A stretch of DNA of 64,000 bases from positions 1,998,394 to 2,062,393 of the forward strand of contig OY282377.1 of assembly GCA_958295785.1 (NCBI GenBank), given 5' to 3'. A program made the translations under genes and the position numbers. Positions 9,911-49,314 of this stretch are shown in pieces. The first letter of the stretch is position 1, and each line of letters begins with the position of its first letter. Source of the stretch: an uncultured Latescibacterota bacterium. GTDB lineage: Bacteria > Latescibacterota > UBA2968. The notes beneath the pieces were generated by a model. That model was not told the origin of the DNA and made no database searches. It saw only the letters and a list, made by a program, of their open reading frames with translations.

Positions 9911-10031
9911 ATGGGAACGGGAGAAACAGAAGGGCTCGAACTTCTGTGCTCACCTCAACGACCAAGTGGTTCGCAGTCCGTTGCCCCATTCTGTCCCCAT
10001 CACCCGTAGGGACAGGCCCCCGTGCCTGTCC
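9911..10031 (+). repeat. Long dispersed repeat, copy A (about 120 bp)
   Basis: This stretch in the nuoH-nuoI gap recurs, reverse-complemented and slightly diverged, at 23896-24018. Its end is a palindrome (CCCGTAGGGACAGGC...GTGCCTGTCC) that also forms the core of the 249-bp array at 27776-28970. Confidence 0.8.
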
Positions 10032-23895: not shown

Positions 23896-24018
23896 GGACA
23901 GGCACGGGGGCCTGTCCCTACGGGTGATGGGGACAGAATGGGGCAATGGACTGCGAACTGCTTGGGGGTTGAGGTGAGCACAGAAGCTCGATCCCTTCTG
24001 TTTCTCTCGTTCCCATCT
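23896..24018 (-). repeat. Long dispersed repeat, copy B
   Basis: Reverse complement of the repeat at 9911-10031 with modest divergence. With the short palindrome that follows, it fills most of the gap 23819-24096, which holds no gene. Confidence 0.8.
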
Positions 24019-26638: not shown

Positions 26639-26712
26639 TGGGCGATACTGGATTCGAACCAGTGACCTCCTGCTTGTAAGGCAGGCGCTCTAACCATCTG
26701 AGCTAACCGCCC
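26639..26712 (-). tRNA. tRNA-Val (anticodon TAC)
   Basis: On the minus strand the cloverleaf reads GGGCGGT acceptor, TAGCTCAGATGGTTAGAGC D-arm, anticodon stem CCTGC, loop CTTACAA with anticodon TAC, stem GCAGG, then the GGTTCGAATCC T-arm and ATCGCCC closing the acceptor. CCA is not encoded. It lies just downstream of the rplS operon on the same strand. Confidence 0.95.
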
Positions 26713-26722
26713 CTGGAGATTT

Positions 26723-26986
26723 CTATTGCGAATCGGTTGGCGACTCCCCCTTCTTCTCGCCCTTGAGCAAGGCCATGGGGATCAAGACGCAATAACCGAT
26801 CACGAGCAGCAATGGCGCCAGCGTGAGCGACAGAAAGCCATCCACGGGCGGGCGCGACAAAAACACATAGCCCAGCGCGATGACGCCAATCCCCAGCCCA
26901 AAAAGCCTCCAGTTGCGTTTTGAATAGGGCAGGGCGCGCTTTGGGCCGCGGTTGGGTGTTCGGCGTTGGTAGCGGCGCGAAGGCAT
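26723..26986 (-). CDS. Small membrane protein (DUF3098-like)
   Basis: An 87-residue protein: a basic N-terminus ([21 protein letters not shown]) and two transmembrane helices (LFGLGIGVIALGYVFLS and LTLAPLLLVIGYCVLIPMALL), then a charged tail. The APLLLVIGY-IPMAL pattern recalls DUF3098 proteins of Bacteroidetes. The start overlaps the rplS stop (TAATG), so it is translationally coupled to rplS at the end of the ribosomal operon. Function unknown. Confidence 0.65.
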   Translation of the reverse strand: MPSRRYQRRTPNRGPKRALPYSKRNWRLFGLGIGVIALGYVFLSRPPVDGFLSLTLAPLLLVIGYCVLIPMALLKGEKKGESPTDSQ

Positions 26987-27336
26987 TATTTTCTCCGTTC
27001 TGCAATGCGGGCAGCGCGACCGCGCAAACCGCGCATGTAGTAAATTTTCGACCGCCGCACTTTGCCGCGGCGCAACACGTCAATTTGGGCAATGCGCGGC
27101 GTGTGCAGGGGAAAGATGCGCTCGACCCCCACGCCACCCGTGCTGATTTTGCGAACCGTAAATGTCGCGTGAATGCCCGCGCCTTTGCGCTGGATCACCA
27201 CACCCTCAAAAAGCTGAATGCGTTCCTTCTCGCCTTCCACCACGCGCACATGCACGCGCACGGTGTCGCCGGCGCCAAACTCGGGCACATCACTTCGTAG
27301 TTGCGCGTGAGAAACAGATTCCAAAATGGCATCCAT
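26986..27336 (-). CDS. rplS: Ribosomal protein L19
   Basis: A 116-residue L19, which bridges the subunits at the 30S-50S interface. Diagnostic segments: [35 protein letters not shown] and [54 protein letters not shown] at 27336 has AAGGAG upstream. In most bacteria rplS directly follows trmD; here the amplified coiled-coil gene lies between them. Confidence 0.97.
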
Positions 27337-27424
27337 GATTTGCAAACTCCTTAAAAAAGTGAAAAGTAAATAGCGATGAGCCATCGGCTTTCAGCCCCAT
27401 CGCTCCGCCGCTGAACAACGAATG

Positions 27425-28747
27425 TTATTCCCACAACTTCACGACAAGGGAAACCAAGGCCGATATGGCATTGACGCAGGCAATGAAGGTGGTAATCATC
27501 CAACGCCTGTTATTTTTTAGCGAGTCGATATCCGCTTTGAGTTCGGCAAATCGCCTGTTTATATCATCGGCTTGGATAAACGTCGACTGGTCTAATATCC
27601 GCTTATCCGTTTCCTCTGCCTGCGTTTGACGCTCTCGAAGATCGGCTTGGGATCGTCTAAGGGCTTGTTGTTCTTGCTCAATCCGTTGCAATTTGGCGTC
27701 GAGTACCGCTTGCTCTTTTGCGAGTTCTTCAACTGTTGTCGCCATGTTCATTCCTTTCTTTAGGGCTAGGTGCAAGGACAGGCACGAGGGCCTGTCCCTA
27801 CGGGTGATCGGGTTGGGTCTGTGACCGTGGTGTCGGATACGGAGGCAACGGCTGGGCCTGTCCCTTGCCTGCGTTTGACGCTCTCGAAGATCGGCTTGGG
27901 ATCGTCTAAGGGCTTGTTGTTCTTGCTCAATCCGTTGCAATTTGGCGTCGAGTACCGCTTGCTCTTTTGCGAGTTCTTCAACTGTTGTCGCCATGTTCAT
28001 TCCTTTCTTTAGGGCTAGGTACAAGGACAGGCACGAGGGCCTGTCCCTACGGGTGATCGGGTTGGGTCTGTGACCGTGGTGTCGGATACGGAGGCAACGG
28101 CTGGGCCTGTCCCTTGCCTGCGTTTGACGCTCTCGAAGATCGGCTTGGGATCGTCTAAGGGCTTGTTGTTCTTGCTCAATCCGTTGCAATTTGGCGTCGA
28201 GTACCGCTTGCTCTTTTGCGAGTTCTTCAACTGTTGTCGCCATGTTCATTCCTTTCTTTAGGGCTAGGTACAAGGACAGGCACGAGGGCCTGTCCCTACG
28301 GGTGATCGGGTTGGGTCTGTGACCGTGGTGTCGGATACGGAGGCAACGGCTGGGCCTGTCCCTTGCCCGCGTTTGACGCTCTCGAAGATCGGCTTGGGAT
28401 CGTCTAAGGGCTTGTTGTTCTTGCTCAATCCGTTGCAATTTGGCGTCGAGTACCGCTTGCTCTTTTGCGAGTTCTTCAACTGTTGTCGCCATGTTCATTC
28501 CTTTCTTTAGGGCTAAGTGCAAGGACAGGCACGAGGGCCTGTCCCTACGGGTGATCGGGTTGGGTCTGTGACCGTGGTGTCGGATACGGAGGCAACGGCT
28601 GGGCCTGTCCCTTGCCCGCGTTTGACGCTCTCGAAGATCGGCTTGGGATCGTCTAAGGGCTTGTTGTTCTTGCTCAATCCGTTGCAATTTGGCGTCGAGT
28701 ACCGCTTGCTCTTTTGCGAGTTCTTCAACTGTTGTCGCCATGTTCAT
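27425..28747 (-). CDS. Coiled-coil membrane-anchored protein, in-frame tandem amplification
   Basis: As read, a 440-residue protein made of repeated 83-residue units plus a unique end. The original gene is probably the 108-residue form starting at 27751: ATTVEELAKEQAVLDAKLQRIEQEQQALRRSQADLRERQ (coiled coil), a linker, and a C-terminal hydrophobic segment (ITTFIACVNAISALVSLVV). Upstream, four further copies of the coiled-coil half alternate with a translated palindromic repeat (RDRPSRCLRIRHHGHR, then NPITRRDRPSCLSL). Every unit keeps AAAGAAAGG plus ATG, so translation could start at any of five places and yield proteins of 108 to 440 residues. No named family; a related tail-anchored coiled coil is at 16682. 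Confidence 0.6.
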   Translation of the reverse strand: MNMATTVEELAKEQAVLDAKLQRIEQEQQALRRSQADLRERQTRARDRPSRCLRIRHHGHRPNPITRRDRPSCLSLHLALKKGMNMATTVEELAKEQAVLDAKLQRIEQEQQALRRSQADLRERQTRARDRPSRCLRIRHHGHRPNPITRRDRPSCLSLYLALKKGMNMATTVEELAKEQAVLDAKLQRIEQEQQALRRSQADLRERQTQARDRPSRCLRIRHHGHRPNPITRRDRPSCLSLYLALKKGMNMATTVEELAKEQAVLDAKLQRIEQEQQALRRSQADLRERQTQARDRPSRCLRIRHHGHRPNPITRRDRPSCLSLHLALKKGMNMATTVEELAKEQAVLDAKLQRIEQEQQALRRSQADLRERQTQAEETDKRILDQSTFIQADDINRRFAELKADIDSLKNNRRWMITTFIACVNAISALVSLVVKLWE

Positions 28748-28970
28748 TCCTTTCTTTAGGGCTAGGTGCAAGGACAGGCACGGGGGCCTGTCCCTACGGG
28801 TGATCGGGTTGGGTCTGTGACCGTGGTGTCGGATACGGAGGCAACGGCTGGGCCCGTCCCTTGCCCGCGTTTGACGCTCTCGAAGATCGGCTTGGGATCG
28901 TCTAAGGGCTTGTTGTTCTTGCTCAACTGTTGTCCGCCATGTTCATTCCTTTCTTTAGGGCTAGGTGCAA
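27776..28970 (-). repeat. Tandem array: four 249-bp units plus one 199-bp unit
   Basis: The marker GGACAGGCAC recurs at 27776, 28025, 28274, 28523 and 28772 (period exactly 249) and again at 28971 (199 later, a 50-base deletion in the last unit). Each unit holds the coiled-coil coding segment, a ribosome site with ATG, and the GTAGGGACAGGC-type palindrome. Units differ by only a few bases, implying recent amplification or ongoing homogenisation. 249 is divisible by three, so the frame stays open. Confidence 0.95.
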
Positions 28971-29020
28971 GGACAGGCACGGGGGCCTGTCCCTACGATT
29001 GATGGGGTTGGGTGGCCTGA

Positions 29021-29695
29021 CTACTGACTTTCCAAAAGATCGGGCCGTCGCGCGCGCGTGCGCTGTCGGGCATTGTCGCGTCGCCATTGGGCGACCTTTT
29101 CGCGATCCCCGCTCAACAGGGCCTGTGGCACGGTCGCGCCTTCAAACTCTCGCGGGCGCGTGTACCACGCGCAATCCAACAGGCCATTTTGAAACGAATC
29201 TTCGAGCGCGGACTCGGCATCGCCAATGGCGCCGGGAATCAGGCGAATCAGCGCGTCGACCACAACTAGGGCGGGCAATTCGCCGCCGCTGAGCACGTAA
29301 TCGCCTATGGAAATCTCGTCATCGACATAGTGCTCGCGGACGCGCTCATCGATGCCGCGATAGTGCCCGCACAGCAAAATGAGATGATCCGTCAACGACA
29401 GCGCGTTGGCGACGGATTGCGTAAATGGCCGGCCTTGCGGCGTCAGAAAAACGACGTGTCCCCCCGACGGGAGGGCTTTCAGCGCATGTGCGATGGGTTC
29501 GGGCTTAAAGATCATTCCCGCGCCCCCGCCGTAGGGCGAGTCGTCTATTGTTTTGTGCTTATCATCAGCGTAATCCCGAAGGTCGTGCGCGACAACATCG
29601 ACCAATCCCGCGTCAATTGCGCGGCGCGGAATGCTGTATTTCAGCACATCCCGAATCAAATCGGGAAAAATCGTGAGGACATCAATTCGCATCAT
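29021..29695 (-). CDS. trmD: tRNA (guanine-N1-)-methyltransferase
   Basis: A 224-residue SPOUT methyltransferase making m1G37 in tRNAs. Diagnostic parts: RIDVLTIFPDLI at the start, DDSPYGGGAGMIFKPEPI (about residues 51-68), LLCGHYRGIDERV and ISIGDYVLSGGELPALVVVDA (about 108-145), which form the trefoil-knot AdoMet site. Its start is four bases after the rimM stop, so the ffh-rpsP-rimM-trmD genes are one operon. Confidence 0.97.
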   Translation of the reverse strand: MMRIDVLTIFPDLIRDVLKYSIPRRAIDAGLVDVVAHDLRDYADDKHKTIDDSPYGGGAGMIFKPEPIAHALKALPSGGHVVFLTPQGRPFTQSVANALSLTDHLILLCGHYRGIDERVREHYVDDEISIGDYVLSGGELPALVVVDALIRLIPGAIGDAESALEDSFQNGLLDCAWYTRPREFEGATVPQALLSGDREKVAQWRRDNARQRTRARRPDLLESQ

Positions 29696-48211: not shown

Positions 48212-48261
48212 CCGCGGGTGTGCAACAGCAGACAGCAGCGTCAACTTCAGGGAGAGGGATT

Positions 48262-49314
48262 ATGGCGGAAGAGAGCGTGCGAACAGAGATTGCCCAGGTG
48301 CGGGGCGAGATGCGAGAAAGGGCTGCTCAAGCAGACGCGAAATTTGCCGAGATGAACGGCAAAACAGATGCCGGTTTTGAGCGCGTGGATAAGGAGATCG
48401 CAAAAGTGCGAGGCGATCAGAGAGAGGGATCCGCACAGGTACGTGGGGAAATGCGCGAGGGCTTTGCACAAGTCGATACCAAATTTGCCGAGATGAATGG
48501 CAAAGTGGATGCCGGATTTGAGCACGTCAATAAAGAATTTGCTCAGGTACGTGGGGAAATGCGCGAGGGCTTTGCACAAGTCGATACCAAATTTGCCGAG
48601 ATGAATGGCAAGATGGACGCCGGATTTGAGCGCGTTAATCAAGAGTTCGCAAAAGTGCGTGGCGAGATGGATGCGAAATTCGCCGAGATGAATGGCAAAA
48701 TGGACTCAGGATTTGAGCGCGTTAATCAAGAGTTCGCAAAAGTGCGCGGCGAGATGGATGCCGGTTTTGCGCAAGTCGATACCAAATTCGCCGATATGAA
48801 TGGCAAAATGGATGCCGGTTTTGAGCGCGTGGATAAAGAGTTCGCAAAAGTGCGTGGCGAGATGGATGCCGGTTTTGAGCGCGTTAATCAAGAGTTCGCA
48901 AAAGTGCGTGGCGAGATGGATGCGAAATTCGCCGAGATGAATGGCAAAATGGACTCAGGATTTGAGCGCGTTAATCAAGAGTTCGCAAAAGTGCGCGGCG
49001 AGATGGATGCGAAATTCGCCGAGATGAATGGCAAAATGGACTCAGGATTTGAGCGCGTTAATCAAGAGTTCGCAAAAGTGCGTGGCGAGATGGATGCGAA
49101 ATTCGCCGAGATGAATGGCAAAATGGACGCTGGCTTTGAACGCGTCGATAGAGAGATCGCAACAGTGCGTGGGGAAATGCACGAAGGCTTTGCACGAGTT
49201 GATGCGAAAATAGAGCGCGCGATCAAGACCTTGCTCTATGCGCTAGTCAGCATAGGCGGTGCTATTGTCATTGGGGTGATAACCGCGCTCATCAGACTAT
49301 GGACAATGCAATAG
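48262..49314 (+). CDS. Hendecad-repeat coiled-coil protein with C-terminal membrane anchor
   Basis: A 350-residue protein made of about ten near-identical repeats, mostly 29 residues (MDAKFAEMNGKM, DSGFERVNQEF, AKVRGE), with hydrophobics spaced 3-4-4 as in right-handed 11-residue coiled coils. The DNA unit of 87 bases is repeated almost exactly between 48650 and 49130. The last 32 residues form a single transmembrane helix (TLLYALVSIGGAIVIGVITALI). ATG 48262 follows GGGAGAGGG. Layout matches the tail-anchored coiled coils at 16682 and 27425. It resembles DUF1640/LEA-like repeat proteins; function unknown. Confidence 0.75.
   Translation: MAEESVRTEIAQVRGEMRERAAQADAKFAEMNGKTDAGFERVDKEIAKVRGDQREGSAQVRGEMREGFAQVDTKFAEMNGKVDAGFEHVNKEFAQVRGEMREGFAQVDTKFAEMNGKMDAGFERVNQEFAKVRGEMDAKFAEMNGKMDSGFERVNQEFAKVRGEMDAGFAQVDTKFADMNGKMDAGFERVDKEFAKVRGEMDAGFERVNQEFAKVRGEMDAKFAEMNGKMDSGFERVNQEFAKVRGEMDAKFAEMNGKMDSGFERVNQEFAKVRGEMDAKFAEMNGKMDAGFERVDREIATVRGEMHEGFARVDAKIERAIKTLLYALVSIGGAIVIGVITALIRLWTMQ

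Follow-up and report, generated by a model that had tools for sequence, protein, structure and literature searches.

REP-containing tandem duplication of a small coiled-coil gene fragment between trmD and rplS of a Latescibacterota bacterium

Introduction

GTAG REPs are short palindromes that carry an unpaired GTAG tag at one end; they sometimes lie in arrays, and intragenic examples have been reported (Di Nocera et al. 2013, PMC3733652). Association of this superfamily with RAYT transposases (Y1_Tnp) is frequent, but not obligatory, and a second kind of element, the Rickettsia palindromic elements (RPE), interrupts known genes (PMC3733652). Here we describe a locus in which a GTAG-tagged palindrome has become part of a tandem array that joins fragments of a small coiled-coil gene in one long open frame. 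The array lies in a stretch of 64,000 nucleotides from an uncultured Latescibacterota bacterium (contig OY282377.1, positions 1,998,394 to 2,062,393), referred to below as the window, and positions are those of the window unless stated otherwise. Taking the evidence together, we think it reasonably probable that this is a species-specific insertion with recent tandem copying beside a REP, in which the intact 106-aa gene is the likely product and the long forms are by-products.

Setting and organisation of the array

The source genome is one 5.66-Mb contig, 99% complete, and the coding order at the locus is ffh, an rpsP-like frame, a rimM-like frame, trmD, the array and rplS (the rpsP-like and rimM-like frames were named by eye). 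The features are as follows.

26986-27384, minus strand: rplS (ribosomal protein L19), downstream neighbour of the array (PF01245, 1.8e-47)
27425-27745, minus strand: intact 3'-most gene copy, 106-aa protein with a coiled coil, then one C-terminal hydrophobic helix (from the ORF and start, the predicted fold, and paralogues in genome and genus)
27746-28741, minus strand: four complete 249-bp units, each with ATG, 42-residue coil half and 41-codon REP-containing spacer, in frame with the intact gene
28742-28990, minus strand: 5'-most degenerate unit and outer REP
27425-28747, minus strand: 440-codon fused ORF, with five coil halves, Arg-rich linkers between them and a C-terminal hydrophobic anchor
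27776-27797, no strand assigned: GTAG-tagged REP-like palindrome core, with other copies at 28025, 28274, 28523, 28772 and 28971
29021-29695, minus strand: trmD, upstream neighbour of the array (PF01746, 2.4e-60)

The trmD and rplS ORFs are 1636 bp apart, whereas the matches to these two genes are separated by only 20-88 bp in the nine of ten genus mates in which both were measurable, and by 57-234 bp elsewhere in the family and order. The difference from the genus mates implies that the cassette as a whole is an insertion acquired in this lineage, and in the genomes compared it is seen in this species only. The genus mate with the 88-bp gap (L044) has short repeats of its own at this site. 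Downstream of rplS lies a tRNA gene (26639-26712, minus strand, Rfam 74.9 bits), which was the only Rfam match above gathering score, no known RNA element being found in the array. TrmD relatives at 86-87% identity come mostly from Latescibacterota MAGs, with one Gemmatimonadota by title; isolate names, together with the literature on sponge Latescibacterota, suggest a sponge habitat for the genus.

The tandem array occupies 27617-28990 on the minus strand, with four spacings of exactly 249 bp and one of 199 bp. TRF reports a period of 249 bp with 5.3 copies at 99% match (27617-28926), and register analysis gives start-to-start distances of 249, 249, 249, 249 and 199 bp, so that the periods in the original prediction are confirmed. 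The array was also where that prediction had placed it (27425-28970), but runs slightly beyond, to about 28990. Between units only five positions vary, one in the coil half and four in the spacer, which bears out the earlier reading of so few differences as a sign of recent expansion. A deletion of about 51 bp and an insertion of one have altered the coil part of the 5'-most, 199-bp unit, whose own frame from the ATG at 28940 therefore closes after five codons (MADNS, then stop). Tandem repeats are a known cause of assembly error, which could have produced a wrong unit number or a spurious repeat, but this is very improbable here given that the genome is a single contig of the size and completeness stated, and that the 1.4-kb array holds differences which distinguish its units as well as the distinct 199-bp unit.

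The GTAG-tagged palindrome

The palindrome, GGACAGGC-N6-GCCTGTCC with GTAG at one end, is 22 bp long and has 127 copies in the 5.66-Mb genome, where a control pattern has none. It is found at eight places in the window against 0.01 chance matches expected; six are within the array, and the other two lie at 10010-10031 and 23896-23917. The proposed in-frame tandem amplification, in which a dispersed palindrome was copied along with half of a coiled-coil gene, is supported. At 52 of 56 sampled sites GTAG is present on exactly one side. Twenty-five of the 56 (array copies included) are inside ORFs that start with ATG and reach 100 aa or more; on inspection by eye most of these look antisense to real genes or like extensions upstream of them. 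A search of ten genus mates with one pattern, allowing at most one mismatch, found no copies, and a looser pattern revealed related palindromes with different arms in the genus. Further REP-containing tandem duplications are present in this genome (78 bp x1.9 at 100%, 108 bp x1.9 and 49 bp x4). A seven-fold repeat of a 117-bp unit, in which a related palindrome occurs together with short direct repeats, lies at a separate locus (L193 4328-5144, genome about 3958.8-3959.6 kb). The RAYT transposase domain (Y1_Tnp, PF01797) has no match in this genome, the identical search being positive in five of 14 control genomes, and RAYT-driven mobility was rejected on this ground.

In RNA the REP would form a strong 12-bp hairpin some 20 nt 5' of the ribosome site, and it has been proposed that GTAG REPs, which often are plausibly transcribed, function as RNA elements (PMC3733652). 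Both points are in line with an array that acts mainly as RNA, in which six REP hairpins and repeated ribosome sites change the stability or translational coupling of the trmD-rplS mRNA, and hence the amount of L19. We consider this quite unlikely, as the fold of the whole spacer is ordinary when compared with shuffles (z -1.46), the REP has no terminator-like U-run, and the region of the rplS ribosome site is similar to that in relatives. A consensus scan of the minus strand found no internal promoters.

A family of small coiled-coil/transmembrane genes

The intact 106-aa copy, modelled as a single continuous helix (residues 2-105, pLDDT 81), belongs to an unnamed family of small coiled-coil/transmembrane proteins. 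No Pfam family matches the gene at its curated cut-off, XhlA (PF10779) scoring 15.5 bits against 34.7; CCDC90-like (PF07798), tested with a paralogue, reaches 16.6 bits against a cut-off of 33.5. The weak match to the phage holin family phrog_689 (1.2e-4) is likely due to coiled-coil/TM composition, and a phage origin of the gene was rejected because tblastn found no phage relatives.

Relatives of the gene were not found by pattern search of genome contigs but by other genome searches, in which the family profile gave 22 matches in this genome (array fragments counted) versus one to four in each of eight genus mates. The paralogues here comprise two in two-gene cassettes beside a recR-like gene, four complete tandem copies beside a trpS-like gene and one single copy; the best are about 40% identical to the inserted gene, for which no source at high identity was found. 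The labels recR and trpS, like the dehydrogenase and retropepsin below, were read from translations by eye, without a profile test. The four tandem genes (L204 479-2220, genome about 1915878-1917619) lie upstream of the trpS-like gene and encode proteins of 123-152 aa in which short internal repeats vary in number. The cassette (L027 113-1783, genome about 3559.7-3561.4 kb; L025/L027) is present twice in tandem before the recR-like gene and pairs a secreted-looking coil protein with a coil/TM protein, its copies being 94% identical over 300 nt. At both of these loci the tandem copies have kept their stop codons. In four genus-mate species (L014, L015, L016 and L018) a single coil/TM gene is located between a dehydrogenase-like gene of the short-chain type and a retropepsin-like gene of 125 aa. 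The family has thus expanded here through tandem duplication at three places, with units fused into one frame only at trmD-rplS.

The fused open frame

The ATG frame, which starts MNMATT, continues uninterrupted for 440 codons (448 aa in a TTG version), in agreement with the 440-residue frame first noted. Each of five nested in-frame ATGGCG starts (28741, 28492, 28243, 27994 and 27745, minus strand) is preceded by the Shine-Dalgarno-like AAAGAAAGGAATGAAC. A ribosome-site-like motif and an ATG in every unit had been foreseen, and are present; the nested lengths of 440, 357, 274, 191 and 108 residues had been counted from an ATG two codons upstream, however, the less likely start, which directly abuts AAGGA; the better-spaced ATG gives 438, 355, 272, 189 and 106 aa.

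With the frame open over four spacers and a motif and start in each unit, extended products are physically possible, and the cell could really make the fused protein, anchored in the membrane, up to 438 aa long and variable in length with unit number, together with nested shorter forms that share the anchor. Such proteins do exist in this genome: a 364-aa plus-strand frame at 48220-49314, with about seven 87-bp repeats (FAKVRGEMDAKFAEMNGKMDAGFERVNQE...) and a hydrophobic segment at its end, shows the coil-plus-anchor architecture in a long form built of repeats. Nevertheless we regard a real fused product as unlikely. Spacers stay open in 22% of dinucleotide shuffles, about one in five, and a period is divisible by three with a chance of 1/3, so that fusion of the frames is unsurprising. 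Four of the five differences between units alter an amino acid and one is silent, and coding constraint is therefore not visible, although five are too few to exclude selection. The palindrome-derived linker, which includes ITRRDRPSCLSLYLALKK, is Arg-rich with a pI of 11.7, contains Cys and Pro, and is predicted to be disordered; in a single-sequence fold of the 438-aa form the coil helices are mostly at pLDDT 70-90 and the linkers largely below 50. In addition the 5'-most unit is degenerate, and stops are kept in the sister arrays.

The variable-length surface or membrane scaffold of the original prediction gains no support from an open frame that is unsurprising, without visible constraint and with linkers predicted disordered, and from sister arrays that keep their stops; a long scaffold protein is possible, but the long ORF is probably a by-product of duplication and not a designed variable surface protein. 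The more specific idea, that REP spacer DNA was recruited as a protein linker to give a membrane-anchored ladder from 106 to 438 aa, with a common anchor, nested starts and a coil number tuned by the number of units, is decidedly unlikely.

Proposed origin

According to the favoured reading, a small lineage-specific coiled-coil/transmembrane gene, with one or more GTAG-type REP palindromes upstream, was inserted between trmD and rplS in this species. Recent slippage or unequal recombination would then have multiplied the REP, the ribosome site and the first half of the gene as a tandem array: the first duplication may have arisen through slippage or illegitimate recombination, and growth of the array through unequal exchange. 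The 3'-most copy, still complete, would be the functional 106-aa gene, while the copies upstream would be fragments of the gene in which the GC-rich REP spacer happens not to interrupt the frame. Translation may additionally yield N-terminally extended proteins of up to 438 aa, which are most likely tolerated by-products.

Where one unit meets the next, the gene sequence ...CGCAGGCA gives way to AGGGACAGGCCC, which is half a REP without the first two bases of the tag, and the microhomology amounts to about one base. As gene sequence is joined here to half a REP, one end of the duplication lay in or at the REP and the other in the gene. In enterobacteria REP sequences can act as join points of duplications; a search of the literature by phrase for such join points in REP-mediated duplication gave no match. 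It is plausible that the palindromes drove recombination, and the junction has almost no microhomology.

The locus illustrates cleanly, and in a recent case, how tandem duplication and intergenic DNA rich in REPs can give rise to a long fused frame within a ribosomal-protein operon. It also carries a warning, since automatic gene calling may yield a 440-aa 'repeat protein' at the trmD-rplS array. Should the extended forms prove to be made, the locus would document in detail how noncoding palindrome DNA can turn into a protein linker.

Comparison with known systems

In architecture the small protein resembles the XhlA-like and CCDC90-like families, a long coil followed by a terminal hydrophobic helix, but its sequence matches are under the curated cut-offs. 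With RPE the locus shares a palindromic repeat in frame inside a protein-coding frame; it differs in that the sampled ORF-borne palindromes seem, on inspection by eye, to lie in frames open by chance or in extensions upstream of genes. The GTAG REPs (PMC3733652) are closer: the palindrome has 8-bp arms and a terminal GTAG, its roughly 127 copies are dispersed, sometimes in arrays, and have asymmetric flanks, and it falls within the superfamily both by size and copy number (20-40 bp, many copies) and by its GTAG tag. Two differences are that no RAYT (PF01797) was found in this genome, and that the palindrome joins the frame via tandem duplication of a gene fragment, whereas it did not insert into a gene. 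Among known kinds of element the GTAG REPs are the nearest, combined here with gene-fragment tandem duplication.
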